Source of the DNA: a virus
Reading direction: 5' to 3' (one strand)
DNA length: 34,742 bases
Virus record (IMG/VR): IMGVR_UViG_3300049893_001465
Span: 1-34,742 of that record
In this document: piece by piece, positions 524 through 34,742 of the stretch
Numbering within the stretch: the stretch's first letter is position 1
Layout: each line of letters starts with the position of its first letter
Translations under genes and position numbers: made by a program
Notes under the pieces: generated by a model
The model's input: only the letters and a program-made list of their open reading frames with translations
Database searches by the model: none
What the model was told of the DNA's origin: nothing

Positions 524-554
524 ATGATAATATCAAAACTATTTTGTATTTTTG
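524..554 (+). promoter_or_regulatory. dyad promoter 1 (before 582)
   Basis: ATGATAATATCAA at 524-536 is a one-base variant of the dyad TTGATNNNATCAA. It is followed, with the fixed 20-base spacing counted from the G at 526, by TATTTTTG at 547-554, which fits the Bacteroidota -7 box TAnnTTTG. The bases after the -7 box (TTGCATAG) also follow the -7 boxes near 22828 and 32638. The overlap of dyad and -33 element suggests repression by a bound protein. Confidence 0.75.
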
Positions 555-581
555 TTGCATAGAAATTAATAACGAAAAACC

Positions 582-11124: not shown

Positions 11125-14001
11125 ATGGCTACCGAGAAAAGTGAGATATTAATAGACCTAACAATAAACACCGACAAAGTTTTGCGTGATACTGTGAAGC
11201 TAAAGGGCGAAGTATCTAATTTAGTGGAGCAAGTCGAAGCTGAAAAATTAGCTTTTCAAAAAGTAGAAGCAGCCATAAATGAGAAAGAAGCCAGTTTGAA
11301 AGCGTTGGTAGCTGCCGAGGGCAAGGAAAGCAAAGCAGTACAGGAAGCAACGAATGAATTAAGGCTGCTCTATACCGAGCTGAATAATAATACTTTGGCA
11401 CTCACAAAGAAACAGGCTGAGTTAAAAGGAGCGCAATCGGAGCTAAGAAGTTATGAAAAAGTTTTAACGCAAACAACGGCGAGCGAAAAAGAACAAACTG
11501 AGGCACTAGACGAGCAAATTGTTACACTTGATACATTGACAGCTAGGAATGAACAACTTAGACTGGAAAGAAGGAAAATCAATATCAATACCCAAGAAGG
11601 CACAGAGGCGATCACTGCAATAAATCAAGAAATTGACAAAAACAATGATTTGATTAAACAGCATTCCGACAAGGTAAAACAGGATAAAATTAATGTAGGT
11701 AATTACACCGATTCAATATTAAAAGCGCAGGAGGCCTTTGGTGATTTAAAGGGGTCGATCTCTGGTGGCATTCAAAAGTTAATAGAAATCCAATCACAAG
11801 GGGGAGGATTAAAAGCATTTTGGGGGGCATTTGTTGGTGGGGTTAATAGTGCGAACAAATCACTTTTGAGGTTATTATTAAACCCAGTAGGTTTATTTTT
11901 GGCGGCCATTGTGGTGGCTATACAACAATATAAGGCAATTATCTCGAGTTCTACAGAACTCACCAATATGTTTGCTAAAGGCTGGGAGGTAATTCAGGCG
12001 GTTTTCAGCGTTGTGGTTAGTACCGCTAGGGACTTGTATATGGCTTTATTTAAGTTGTTTACCCTTGATTTTTCTGGAGCTTTGGATACCGCTACAAAAG
12101 CAGTCACAGGATTTGCAGACAGTATGCAAGGGGCTGTTAATGCAGCAATCGACTTGGCTAATATAAACGCACAAAACGAAATTAACGAAAGAAACAGAAT
12201 TATACAATTAGCTAATTTAACCGCCCAGCTCAAGAAATTAGAGCAAGTCGAGAATGATAATACGAAAAGTTTGAAGGAACGCCAAGAAGCAAGTATTTTG
12301 GCAGGTGAAAAACGCTTGGAACTTGCTGAAATAGAGAAACAAGCTGCTGACGATGCATTGAAAGCAGTATCGGCGCAACTTGAAAAGAATAGAGCAGCAC
12401 GAAAAACCAACGCTGAAGATGATAAGGCTTACGTGGAAGCCTTGAGTAAACAAATAGAAGCAACAAGTAATATAGAAGCAAAGCGTTATGAGAACGGTCA
12501 AAAGCTTCGAGAAATAAGCAATGATAATTTGCAGCGTGAACTTGATGCTTTAATTGATGGCTTCGACGTGCGTAAATCTTTGGTAGAGCAAGAGTTATCT
12601 GATACAACAAAAAGTATCGATGTACGAAAAAAAGCTTTTAAAGACTTGCAAAAAGACGCTGTGGATAATTATCAATTAGAAGTTGATGCAATAAATCGTT
12701 TTTTGGTTAATAATGGAAAGTTTACCAAGGCGCAAATAGATTCTACAGAGCTTATAAAAATGAATCAATTAGAACTTTCCAAATTTTTAACTGAAAAAGG
12801 CTTAGCAGCCGATGCCGTTGGTGCTAGGATTTTAGATGTATACAAAGAAAGATTCATGCAACTAAAAGACTTTTCAGCTCAAGAAAAATCCTTTGTACAA
12901 GAGCAAATTCAGAATCAACAAAAAATATTAAATTCTCAGATAAATAACATTCAATTAGATTTACAGATTTTTGTTGAAACACAAAAGAAAAAACGTGCAG
13001 AAAACAAGGCAATTACCGAGCAGGATTTAAAAACGCAAATAGATTCTTTAGAAAATTTGTCAATAGCTCAACGCAATGCTGCCGTTGCAAATTATGAAAA
13101 CAAAAAAGAACTTGCAATAATAGCAAAGGAAGATCTTAAGGCACTTGAAAAACAATTAGATTTGGATTTGTTGAAACTCGAAAGCGAATACAACGCACAA
13201 AGCAAAGCACTTACGGACGCAAAAATAGCGCAAGATGTTGAAGCTGAAATGTTTTTATTTGACCTGAAAAAAGAATTGGCAGGGCAAAATATTGCTTTGC
13301 AAGCTCAATACGCTGCAGAGGAGGTCGATATTGAGGCGAAAAAAAATAAAGAAATAGCACAAAAAACAATAGCAGATCAGACTAAGTTACAAAAAGCTTT
13401 ATTAGATATAGATAAGGTTGCAGCGCAAAAAAAACGTGCGATAAAAATATCAGAACTACAGGATCAGCTGGCTGCCAATAAGGAGTTTTTGAACAACCTC
13501 AAAGGTGCCATGAAAGAGCACACAAAAGCGTATAAGGCTATTGCGATCGCACAAGCTACAATAGATACAATAAGTAGTGCGGTTTCTGCTTACAAATCAA
13601 TGGCAGGACTTGGTCCCGCGGGACCTTATCTTGGAGCCATAGCAGCTGCGGCAGCATTGTTTCAGGGCTACCAAAATATAAGGAAAATAGTCGAAGTCGA
13701 TCCGAACGGTGAAGACGGAGCAAGCGTAGGCTCAGCACCCACTTCGAGCGGTGGCAGCGTTCCAACGACAAACGCCCCAACGGCTGCAACGGTTACAAGT
13801 CAGAGCACTGGCTTGGCAGTTGGTACCGATGTAAATAGTAGTATAATTCAATCACAACAACAAGTAGTAACAAAGAATGATATTAAAGGAGCGTTTAAAG
13901 AAGCGTTACAAGAAACACCAATGCAAACGGCTGTCGTTGTTGATCAAGTTACATACTCGCAAAAAAGTGTAACAACAAATAATAATTTATCTGTACTATA
14001 G
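11125..14001 (+). CDS. tape measure protein
   Basis: A 958-residue protein, the longest in the window. It is mostly coiled coil, rich in K, E, Q and A, with heptad-like runs across residues about 20-200 and 350-800. Hydrophobic segments lie at about 246-268 (LLLNPVGLFLAAIVVAIQQ) and 829-850 (GPAGPYLGAIAAAAALFQGY). These are the marks of a tape measure protein, which sets tail length and helps DNA entry through the cell envelope. The C-terminal 100 residues are S/T/Q-rich and of low complexity. It lies upstream of the head genes, an unusual position. The parS-like palindrome is just before it. Confidence 0.88.
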   Translation: MATEKSEILIDLTINTDKVLRDTVKLKGEVSNLVEQVEAEKLAFQKVEAAINEKEASLKALVAAEGKESKAVQEATNELRLLYTELNNNTLALTKKQAELKGAQSELRSYEKVLTQTTASEKEQTEALDEQIVTLDTLTARNEQLRLERRKININTQEGTEAITAINQEIDKNNDLIKQHSDKVKQDKINVGNYTDSILKAQEAFGDLKGSISGGIQKLIEIQSQGGGLKAFWGAFVGGVNSANKSLLRLLLNPVGLFLAAIVVAIQQYKAIISSSTELTNMFAKGWEVIQAVFSVVVSTARDLYMALFKLFTLDFSGALDTATKAVTGFADSMQGAVNAAIDLANINAQNEINERNRIIQLANLTAQLKKLEQVENDNTKSLKERQEASILAGEKRLELAEIEKQAADDALKAVSAQLEKNRAARKTNAEDDKAYVEALSKQIEATSNIEAKRYENGQKLREISNDNLQRELDALIDGFDVRKSLVEQELSDTTKSIDVRKKAFKDLQKDAVDNYQLEVDAINRFLVNNGKFTKAQIDSTELIKMNQLELSKFLTEKGLAADAVGARILDVYKERFMQLKDFSAQEKSFVQEQIQNQQKILNSQINNIQLDLQIFVETQKKKRAENKAITEQDLKTQIDSLENLSIAQRNAAVANYENKKELAIIAKEDLKALEKQLDLDLLKLESEYNAQSKALTDAKIAQDVEAEMFLFDLKKELAGQNIALQAQYAAEEVDIEAKKNKEIAQKTIADQTKLQKALLDIDKVAAQKKRAIKISELQDQLAANKEFLNNLKGAMKEHTKAYKAIAIAQATIDTISSAVSAYKSMAGLGPAGPYLGAIAAAAALFQGYQNIRKIVEVDPNGEDGASVGSAPTSSGGSVPTTNAPTAATVTSQSTGLAVGTDVNSSIIQSQQQVVTKNDIKGAFKEALQETPMQTAVVVDQVTYSQKSVTTNNNLSVL

Positions 14002-22797: not shown

Positions 22798-22828
22798 TTG
22801 ATATTATCAAAAAGTATTCGTACATTTG
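22798..22828 (+). promoter_or_regulatory. dyad promoter 5 (before 22924)
   Basis: TTGATATTATCAA (22798-22810) has perfect arms. Its TTG is the -33 element, and TACATTTG (22821-22828) follows after 20 bases. TTGCATAG follows the -7 box as in promoters 1 and 9. It starts a new transcription unit after the late terminator. Confidence 0.85.
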
Positions 22829-22923
22829 TTGCATAGTTAATGCAGAATGCTGGCAGCCTTTGAATAAGCATCGGTGTTGGATCGTACCCGACTTTTGCAG
22901 CTGAAATTTAAAACCAAAAAGAT
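22829..22923 (+). other. structured leader with tiny ORF
   Basis: The ~90-base leader before 22924 can form hairpins ATGCT/AGCAT (22847-22851 with 22867-22871) and GTTGG/CCGAC (22876-22880 with 22888-22892, one G-U pair). A seven-codon ORF (MQNAGSL, 22840-22863) overlaps the first. These may be chance, but the leader is longer and richer in G+C than most others here. Confidence 0.3.
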
Positions 22924-25881: not shown

Positions 25882-26304
25882 ATGGATTTCAAAGGAATTT
25901 TTTATTTGGACAAGGTCGTTGAAGAGGCACCCGTCACATTCAAAGACAAAACTTCGAGAAAATTTAGTGTTTATCTTTCGGAGACCAATGTCATAGGCCA
26001 AAAGGATATTATCAAAGCGGAGGCTTTTGAAAATACTTTAAAATTTGCCAAAGTTTTAGAGGCACCACAAGGCACGGAATTTGTTTGTGAAATTAAAGTA
26101 ACTGGAGGCTATTATACTGCAAAAGACGAAACCGTAAAGCACATGAATAGAGTTAATTTAGTTCGGGTCGGTCTAGTTACTTGGGAGCAAAAGTATAATA
26201 ATACCCAAGCCAATACAACGCCAGCTGCTCCAGTTGCACAAATAAAAGCACAAACTAAAGGAGATGATTTTTTTCCGACTCCAATAGATGATATAGGTTT
26301 TTAA
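25882..26304 (+). CDS. single-stranded DNA-binding protein-like
   Basis: A 140-residue protein with a beta-rich N-terminal domain (residues 1-105; FSVYLSETNVIGQKDIIKAE, FVCEIKVTGGYYTA), consistent with an OB fold. A flexible N/T/P/A-rich linker follows. The acidic end, FFPTPIDDIGF, resembles the DDDIPF tip used by bacterial SSBs to recruit replication partners. It is encoded just before the PrimPol gene. SSB function is inferred from this layout, not from a full domain match. Confidence 0.6.
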   Translation: MDFKGIFYLDKVVEEAPVTFKDKTSRKFSVYLSETNVIGQKDIIKAEAFENTLKFAKVLEAPQGTEFVCEIKVTGGYYTAKDETVKHMNRVNLVRVGLVTWEQKYNNTQANTTPAAPVAQIKAQTKGDDFFPTPIDDIGF

Positions 26305-26478: not shown

Positions 26479-28797
26479 ATGTATTCAATTCAAAAATGCC
26501 TTGCGCTTCTTAATAGTGGCTTTTCGCTTCTTACCGTTGGAGATGGGGACGGTGGGAAACGGCCAAATTTTTCTTGGAAAAAAAATGAAACCGAACCGCT
26601 GCAAACAAATGAATTTATTAAACGCTACAATTATGCTGGCGGTTTGGTCAAAAAAGATGGTAAACCGATACACCCTACAATAAACACAGGTTTAATCACT
26701 GGTTTCGATTTTTTGGAGGTTATAGATGTAGACTTAAAATTTATCAAAGATCCAAAAGAACAAAATTCTATATTTAATTCTTACATTAAATTAGTAAAAA
26801 AATCTTGGCCAGACTTTGAGGATAAGGTAGTTATTGCGATGACTGTCAATAGAGGTTATCATCTTTTGTATAAGGCGAAAAATTGCGCACCGTCTACTCA
26901 TTTGGCAAAAACAATAGATGAGCACCCACTTTTCGAAACAAGGGGGATCGGGGGGTACGTATTCATGTACGAAAACTTTTTGCACAAAAAAAACTACTTG
27001 GACATAGTTTATATTTCGGATACTGAAAGAGATATACTTATAGATTCTGCCAAGACATTTAACCAACTAATTAAACAAAGTCCAGAATTTGAGCAAAAAA
27101 TTGAAGCTGATACTAAGCCTATAAAGCTAACTACCAAAGCGGATTTTAATAATAGGAACTCGGTTTGGTCACTTATCCAAAACGAATTTACTATAGTCGA
27201 TACTCACTCGGATAAGATAGTTATTAAAAGAAATGGAACAGAAAACTCAAGTAGTGGCACAATTTTTAAAACTAGCAATGTATTATACTTATTCACAACT
27301 TCGACAAAGTACCCTAGTAACGAGGGCTTAAGTGCGTTCAAAATTTATGCTATTCAAAAGTATGCTGGCGACGAAAAAGCCGCTTGGAAAGATTTGTATA
27401 ATCAAGGTTACGGAGATAGATATATAAAAATCAATACTTTGCCAGCTATTGCTAAGCCAGCGCCCGAACCTATAGAATTAACATCTGATTATAAAATAAT
27501 AGACTTTCCTATCGAAGTCTACCCTGCAATTTTTCAAACGTATGTTACTGAATTGGCCGAGGTTAGTAGGTTGAATATTGATTACATGGGCTGCGCTTTG
27601 CTTTGGCTTACAAGTATTTGCATTGGTAATTCGTACGAAGTAAAAATTACCAATGTTTGGAAGGAAAAGGCTATTGTATGGATTGCCCTCGGCGGGGTCA
27701 AAGGTGCTGGTAAAAGTCCTGCTTTAGATTCAATTACTTATCCACTATCTGAAATAAATATAACTGAAATAAATCAATTTAAAAGAAACGAAAAGGAATA
27801 CAAAGAATTTTTATCACTTTCGGAGAAAGATAAAAAAAATGTAATTGAAATTCCTGAGCCAGTTTCAAAACAATTTTTTGTAAATAATACAACCGTTGAG
27901 GCTATTTATACACTTCACGAAAAAAATAAATTTGGCGTTGGCGTTTTGGCCGATGAGCTTACAATGTGGATAAATGGAATGAATCAATATAAGTCTGGCG
28001 GGGCAGATTTGGCGTTTTGGTTACAAGTATTCAACGGGCGAAATGCAATCGTAAACCGCAAGGGCAGCGGTGCAAGTGCTATAAAAAATGTATTCACTCC
28101 AGTCATTGGCAACGTGCCTAATACTGTGTTTACTAGGTTAATGGCAGGCGAAAACATGGAAAACGGTTTCTTCGATAGGATTTTATTTTGTTCACCTGAC
28201 AAAAAAATCGAGTATATGCCTGAGTCCGACGTAGATCAAGAATTGAGTTACGCATATAAAGAATTTGTAATTGATTTATATAGAACGTTTAGAAACATAG
28301 CAAACTACGATAGTACGGGCGAAATCATTCCATACACCGCTAATTTCACACCTGAAGCAAAAGCAGTATATCATGAAATACATAATAAGTTTGTTGACCT
28401 CGAAAACTCGGATTCAGAAACCGAACTTGTTAGGGGTGTTTTGCCAAAAATTAAAACCTACCTGCCACGTATAGCACTAATTTTAAACTGTTTAAACAAC
28501 TACCTAACAACAAATAGTATGCTTGAAATTACAGTTGAAAGCGTAGTTAACAGCGAGAAGGTATGCTTATTTTTTCTCGAGAATGTAAGAAAATTTGCAT
28601 CAAAGAAAATTGAGTTTACAGATTTAAAGACAATTTTGGAGGCTAACAAAAACAAGAAACTATCAGATAAAATTAGGATCGTATTGGAAACTTTGCCTTA
28701 TTGTGTAGATTCCGAGCTGGCTGCGCATTTAGGAGTAGCACGACAAACCATTTTTAGGCATCGAAAAAAAATTCAAAATGAAACAAGTGATAAATGA
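26479..28797 (+). CDS. PrimPol/DUF3987 primase-helicase
   Basis: A 772-residue replication protein in three parts. (1) Residues about 1-170: archaeo-eukaryotic primase/PrimPol core with catalytic VIDVD (D83, D85), RGYHLLY (H128) and the ETRGIGGYV strand. (2) Residues about 340-690: a DUF3987 helicase-like ATPase with Walker A GVKGAGKS (406-413) and Walker B VLADE (D492, E493). (3) Residues about 740-772: a helix-turn-helix end (ELAAHLGVARQTIFRHRKK) likely to bind DNA. It probably primes and unwinds DNA at the origin. It overlaps the next gene by 20 bases. Confidence 0.88.
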   Translation: MYSIQKCLALLNSGFSLLTVGDGDGGKRPNFSWKKNETEPLQTNEFIKRYNYAGGLVKKDGKPIHPTINTGLITGFDFLEVIDVDLKFIKDPKEQNSIFNSYIKLVKKSWPDFEDKVVIAMTVNRGYHLLYKAKNCAPSTHLAKTIDEHPLFETRGIGGYVFMYENFLHKKNYLDIVYISDTERDILIDSAKTFNQLIKQSPEFEQKIEADTKPIKLTTKADFNNRNSVWSLIQNEFTIVDTHSDKIVIKRNGTENSSSGTIFKTSNVLYLFTTSTKYPSNEGLSAFKIYAIQKYAGDEKAAWKDLYNQGYGDRYIKINTLPAIAKPAPEPIELTSDYKIIDFPIEVYPAIFQTYVTELAEVSRLNIDYMGCALLWLTSICIGNSYEVKITNVWKEKAIVWIALGGVKGAGKSPALDSITYPLSEINITEINQFKRNEKEYKEFLSLSEKDKKNVIEIPEPVSKQFFVNNTTVEAIYTLHEKNKFGVGVLADELTMWINGMNQYKSGGADLAFWLQVFNGRNAIVNRKGSGASAIKNVFTPVIGNVPNTVFTRLMAGENMENGFFDRILFCSPDKKIEYMPESDVDQELSYAYKEFVIDLYRTFRNIANYDSTGEIIPYTANFTPEAKAVYHEIHNKFVDLENSDSETELVRGVLPKIKTYLPRIALILNCLNNYLTTNSMLEITVESVVNSEKVCLFFLENVRKFASKKIEFTDLKTILEANKNKKLSDKIRIVLETLPYCVDSELAAHLGVARQTIFRHRKKIQNETSDK

Positions 28798-32608: not shown

Positions 32609-32638
32609 TTGATTTTATCAAAAAGATTTGTACTTTTG
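32609..32638 (+). promoter_or_regulatory. dyad promoter 9 (before 32683)
   Basis: TTGATTTTATCAA (32609-32621), a perfect-arm dyad, then TACTTTTG (32631-32638) after 19 bases. TTGCATAG follows the -7 box, as at promoters 1 and 5. Confidence 0.85.
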
Positions 32639-32682
32639 TTGCATAGGAAATGAATGATAAGAACCACTAAAAACTAGAAATC

Positions 32683-34391: not shown

Positions 34392-34488
34392 AAAATTCAG
34401 CTGCAACAAAGTTGTGTTGCAAAGTAACAAGCCTGCAACAGTTTTTTAAAGTCGAAACGCCAGTAAAATCAATACTTACAGATAAAAC

Positions 34489-34616
34489 TGCAACGATTGT
34501 AACAATTGCAACACAAGAAATATTTAAATATAGATATTTGATTAATGTTTGATTTTATCATAATATAATTAAAAAAGCTCTATATTGTGTTTGTTGCAAT
34601 CGTTGTAATCGTTGCA
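34489..34616. repeat. 25-bp inverted repeat with 78-base loop
   Basis: The arms at 34489-34513 and 34592-34616 are reverse complements except at about three positions in the middle. The right arm is itself two 9-base direct units (TTGCAATCG, TTGTAATCG) and part of a third. The loop is A/T-rich and contains the dyad TTGATTTTATCAT, without a -7 box at the usual spacing. Confidence 0.85.
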
Positions 34617-34716
34617 AGATGTTCTGTAAGTATAGTAAATACTGGTAGTGTAGTATATAAAATGTGTTACTTAGTTGTTACTGTGTGTTACTATGTAGTG
34701 TTATATATGTAGTATA

Positions 34717-34742
34717 ATATATAATAATATAATATATAATAA
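34717..34742. repeat. terminal direct repeat (copy of 1-26)
   Basis: The last 26 bases are identical to bases 1-26. Although of low complexity, an exact 26-base end overlap is what assemblers leave on a circular or circularly permuted genome, so the unit length is probably about 34,716 bases. Confidence 0.8.

Follow-up and report, generated by a model that had tools for sequence, protein, structure and literature searches.

In iteron plasmids of the RepE/RepA type and in origins of the lambda O type, short repeats adjoin an A/T-rich melting region, and the initiators of both recruit the helicase and the primase of the host. Phage satellites of the PICI/SaPI kind have a Rep-iteron origin in which sets of iterons flank an A/T-rich region, the iterons being recognised by the C-terminal domain of the SaPI Rep (PMC6092414, PMC7581432). 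The PrimQH/all3500 fusions of PrimPol and DUF3987 unite a primase, a putative DUF3987 helicase and a C-terminal winged helix for which a role in origin recognition has been suggested; iterons are not mentioned in that work (PMC5862659).

The window analysed here, which is the whole 34,742-base stretch of virus record IMGVR_UViG_3300049893_001465, encodes a protein with the same domain make-up as those fusions and ends in a repeat array (34392-34742). As in iteron plasmids and lambda, repeated short sites lie beside an A/T-rich region of presumed melting, and, as in PICI/SaPI, whose initiator helicase is encoded nearby and is sometimes fused to a primase, there are two iteron sets around that region. 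By analogy, the array looks as if it worked like a PICI/SaPI origin. It is not classed as one because the genome is that of a full phage, the initiator differs in domain make-up and its gene is not adjacent. The satellite trait of lacking a full structural gene set is not met, since domain matches identify a terminase, a portal and a head protease, accompanied by a tape-measure-sized ORF; the layout thus occurs here in full phages, which have genes for terminase, portal and tail. The initiator here consists of PrimPol, DUF3987 (MCM-like) and a helix-turn-helix (HTH); the array lies 5.5 kb downstream of its gene instead of immediately 3' of it, and in relatives it may be on the 5' or the 3' side. 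The phage arrays also carry an extra conserved motif. In contrast to iteron plasmids and lambda, the phage initiator is predicted to be helicase and primase in one protein, and the iterons form two opposed sets; relative to the described PrimPol-DUF3987 fusions, what is added here, by inference, is a residue-base rule and the sites that are recognised. No earlier report of such origins for this phage group was found in the open-licence literature.

Nearly all genes of the window lie on the + strand, so that its GC skew, which stays positive over nearly the whole length and climbs steadily, is uninformative as a test of the origin. The nearest matches to its terminase are Nonlabens phages, which, together with promoters of the TAnnTTTG type, suggests a host among the Bacteroidota. 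Close relatives of the phage were found neither through terminase or capsid among viral contigs nor through capsid among named phages. From left to right, the array comprises the following elements:

34402..34440, outer-left iterons: TGCAACA at 34402 (+) and 34415 (-), AGTAACA at 34423 (+), TGCAACA at 34434 (+)
34465..34478, - strand, second conserved motif, TAAGTATTGATTTT (family consensus TAAACATTGATAAT)
34489..34513, + strand, inner-left iterons TGCAACG, TGTAACA and TGCAACA at 9-bp spacing
34514..34591, A/T-rich core (A/T content about 85%), putative melting site from its composition and from its occurrence at the same place in the relatives read by eye
34592..34616, - strand, inner-right iterons at 9-bp spacing
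34665..34692, - strand, outer-right iterons, three AGTAACA, 11 and 10 bp apart
34713..34742, pure A/T tract up to the contig end
1..45, further part of the A/T tract should the ends be joined, with the 26-bp A/T-only terminal direct repeat

A sequence-only reading of the window had proposed an origin here from seven TGCAAC/GTTGCA hexamers in 215 bases, a 25-bp inverted repeat around a 78-base loop, three GTTACT repeats at near-helical spacing and an A/T tract across the genome joint. The hexamers are present (34402, 34416, 34434, 34489, 34507, 34593 and 34611), and seven copies were never reached in 1000 dinucleotide shuffles of the array region, in which the commonest 6-mer averaged 3.1. The inverted repeat (34489-34513 / 34592-34616) and its loop exist as described, except that pairing is not perfect (22/25 matched); it extends to 64 nt at 73%. 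The GTTACT repeats, at 34666, 34677 and 34687, also stand, and they prove to be one-mismatch iterons on the minus strand. The A/T tract is likewise real, and only the joint that it was said to cross remains unproven: both genome ends carry the 26-bp direct repeat of A/T letters only, and a true joint between 34742 and 1 is therefore plausible. Two features had gone unmentioned, namely the opposed symmetry of the array, in which six of the seven left-hand iterons point forward and the right-hand ones essentially all point in reverse across the core, and the second motif. The latter, which we take to resemble an architectural-protein site, is identical at 14/14 positions to the copy in relative L132, and motifs like it were scored in 27/38 arrays as against 22% of random regions, a contrast that is optimistic because these same arrays served to train the motif model. 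When the window was searched blind with TGCAACA, the array was unambiguous (9 hits versus 5), whereas with TGTAACA alone a coding region at 13861 scored equally, at 8 hits in either place.

The only candidate for a replication initiator recognised in the window, and the gene that precedes it, are these:

26479..28797, + strand, PrimPol-DUF3987 protein of 772 aa, proposed initiator from its Prim-Pol and DUF3987 domains and fold comparison
28660..28791, + strand, C-terminal three-helix HTH (aa 728-771) of the structure model, with recognition helix ARQTIFRHRK (aa 754-763)
25882..26304, + strand, probable single-stranded DNA-binding protein

Both domains of the initiator score above the gathering threshold. 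Its structure model (mean pLDDT 83) ends in the HTH; the N-terminal part compares with the PrimPols of pRN1 and NrS-1 and other parts with MCM AAA+ helicases. Since the comparison does not specify which stretch was matched, the assignment of the MCM-like fold to the middle of the protein rests on the position of DUF3987. Among 38 family members, Prim-Pol was found in 37 and DUF3987 in 38, and HTH families matched in up to 22; for the window protein no HTH match was listed. That protein forms a long outlier branch, with 34-40% identity to its relatives and none above about 41%. The label for the preceding gene depends entirely on the C-terminal tip DDIGF of its product, for which a domain search gave no confident family hit; a similar tip, DDDLPF, occurs on a protein upstream of PrimPol in L005.

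L005 was the one locus returned by a single-sequence PrimPol search, and it has a similar array, with TGTAACA iterons, in the gap adjoining the PrimPol gene. Alignment searches then returned 18, 455 and 485 relatives, of which at most 80 were kept each time, so that the family spans more than 450 uncultured viral loci; among named phages and plasmids there was no full-length relative at 80% cover. In a subset of 83 relatives, whose members are not mutually independent (clustering them and the window at 80% identity leaves 38 groups), the densest 7-mer cluster was no more than 800 bp from PrimPol in 77. Of the six exceptions, four are on contigs that break off close to the gene, L169 has its second-ranking cluster next to it, and L168, with its array 4.7 kb away, is the only relative in which the distance is similar to the unusual one in the window. 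The densest cluster was likewise within 800 bp of PrimPol in 41 of 43 held-out contigs, no array being found near PrimPol in L246 and L266. A scan of bacterial genomes with two query sequences gave no relatives, and one with a larger alignment gave seven loci; in metagenome-assembled bacterial contigs, mostly Bacteroidota, the top cluster was beside PrimPol in all six checked. About 130 related uncultured phages thus carry such a cluster, usually adjoining their own PrimPol gene. Visual reading of the first 17 relatives showed two opposed iteron sets flanking an A/T-rich core; for later ones the layout was judged from cluster position and iteron consensus, without reading each individually.

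The iterons themselves vary widely among relatives (TGTAACA, TGTAAAG, TGTGAAA, TTTAAACC, TGCGCAA, TGTCACC, TGTCAAA), and this variation follows the recognition helix. In a partial Mantel test on the 38 non-redundant proteins, the iteron tracked the helix given the protein body (r = 0.30, 0/5000 permutations) and did not track the body given the helix (r = 0.02). In the discovery set, C at iteron base 6 accompanied Arg at helix position 7, and A accompanied Asn (TGNNAC / TGNNAA), a rule recorded before the 43 further contigs were fetched. Every Arg or Asn case in the held-out set obeys it, including 10/10 new helices (7 Arg, 3 Asn), and three of the Bacteroidota metagenome contigs add concordant cases while a fourth fits a Leu class. 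When iterons were predicted from the nearest helix for 20 new helices, the mean distance was 1.01 against 2.10 in shuffles, none of 2000 being as good, and on a tree that left out the HTH all eight independent Arg/Asn contrasts on supported branches matched the base (sign test, p = 0.008). The tree was a quick one with the window on a long branch, the residue classes were assigned by eye from consensus tables, and iteron orientation was chosen to fit because some iterons are near-palindromic; the Mantel and nearest-helix tests are independent of that choice. The window helix (Arg 755, Arg 760) predicts TGNNAC, to which its TGCAACA and TGTAACA repeats conform; its mean iteron distance is 1.43 to the Arg class versus 2.8-2.9 to the Asn and Lys classes, and L267, also with Arg at position 7, has both TGCAACA and TGTAACA in one array. 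Two finer rules were dropped: Lys at position 3 calling for TGTNACC held in L244 and failed in the L222 group, and Leu, Ile or Val at position 2 calling for TT met an exception in L184.

Natural swaps point the same way. The PrimPol bodies of L193 and L210 are 98% identical and their last 50 residues 67%, and the iterons are TGTAACA and TTTAAACC, respectively. At the DNA level the two are about 90% identical until shortly before the gene ends and about 87% identical beyond the array, and the differing stretch of ~0.3 kb (L193:5333-5617 versus L210:7787-8108) contains the HTH end and the array, as if the two had been exchanged as one cassette. L221 and L222 repeat the pattern, the bodies of such pairs being 98-99% identical with differing HTH ends and iterons. 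In L265 and L269 the array is upstream of the gene, and although ~2 kb separates it from the HTH codons, its iterons match the HTH, so that linkage of adjacent sequence alone is not a sufficient explanation.

Given the layout observed, the repeated occurrence of arrays next to PrimPol among relatives and the match between iterons and helices, we consider it very likely, in the absence of bench data, that the array is the replication origin of the phage, bound through the HTH of the PrimPol-DUF3987 protein and opened and primed by that same protein. The proposal of an origin, first made from the sequence alone, is thereby strongly supported by comparison. As a mechanism, the C-terminal HTH would bind the TGYAAC iterons, the MCM-like AAA+ domain would assemble on the two oppositely oriented sets and open the A/T-rich core, and the PrimPol domain would prime forks that run bidirectionally. 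That rings load, the core melts, priming occurs and forks run in both directions is inferred without binding or replication data, and iteron binding by the C-terminal domain is deduced from covariation and natural swaps only, with no binding assay. Against the origin reading are the 5.5 kb between array and PrimPol, the outlying PrimPol branch, the tie at 13861 and the uninformative skew.

More tentatively, and with slightly less than even confidence, we propose that a large group of uncultured phages, apparently of Bacteroidota, has PICI-like origins with a one-protein initiator, MCM-like rings placed head to head on opposed iterons, specificity set by a few helix residues and exchange of HTH-plus-origin cassettes. 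With over 120 naturally occurring pairs of initiator and origin, some of them near-identical proteins whose differences fall mainly in the reading helix, and with a residue-base rule that can be read from them, the way in which phage initiators alter their origin specificity can be tested directly, and origins in uncultured phage genomes can be located from protein sequence. A satellite-type layout in full phages also bears on where satellites obtained it.

Could the array instead be an operator, at which PrimPol or a small HTH protein controls transcription while replication starts elsewhere? The sequence-only reading had noted GTTGCA in the transcribed starts of dyad promoters, and this is borne out: TTTGTTGCATAG, which includes the iteron TGTTGCA, occurs exactly three times in the window, each time overlapping a Bacteroidota-type -7 box TAnnTTTG:

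551..562, + strand, TTTGTTGCATAG at a TAnnTTTG promoter
22825..22836, + strand, TTTGTTGCATAG at a TAnnTTTG promoter
32635..32646, + strand, TTTGTTGCATAG at a TAnnTTTG promoter

A small HTH ORF also adjoins the array in some relatives (L129, L130, L131). However, the window array contains no TAnnTTTG promoter, and iterons are not enriched at such boxes across the family (7 versus 4.3 expected, 3 of the 7 from the window), which leaves the suggestion that one factor reads iterons and promoters unsupported as a general link and unresolved for the window phage. An origin accounts better for the symmetry about an A/T core and for the match to a primase-helicase, and we regard an operator as unlikely. 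Rather less likely still is another kind of initiator-binding site, for partition, copy control or packaging, that is not the start site; opposed iteron sets could in general serve to pair origins or to seed packaging, but none of the proteins examined was recognised as the product of a partition gene, the array goes with the primase-helicase, and the relatives that were read also have an A/T-rich core. Repeats arisen by chance, or a hairpin of the terminator type, for which the A/T-rich composition and the position at the contig end might speak, are scarcely credible given the 78-base loop and helix-predicted iterons in comparable arrays, and as a sole explanation are ruled out by the shuffles and by the arrays beside PrimPol (77/83 and 41/43).

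Some minor observations concern the promoters and the relatives. Five promoter-like sites of the window (547, 4612, 22821, 29377 and 32631) have a dyad of the GATAATATCAAAAA type, in some cases imperfect, upstream of the TAnnTTTG box, and three of them run on into exact TTTGTTGCATAG. The small proteins adjoining the array (L131:1347-1937; L129 and L130:9609-9839) have a PrimPol-like HTH at the end or within, e.g., SISRKTVYKYINEI, and judging by this similarity are possible second readers of the same iterons. Finally, L133:15281-15860 holds a second strong repeat cluster, CTGGCAA in 10-11 copies per 260 bp, away from its PrimPol array.
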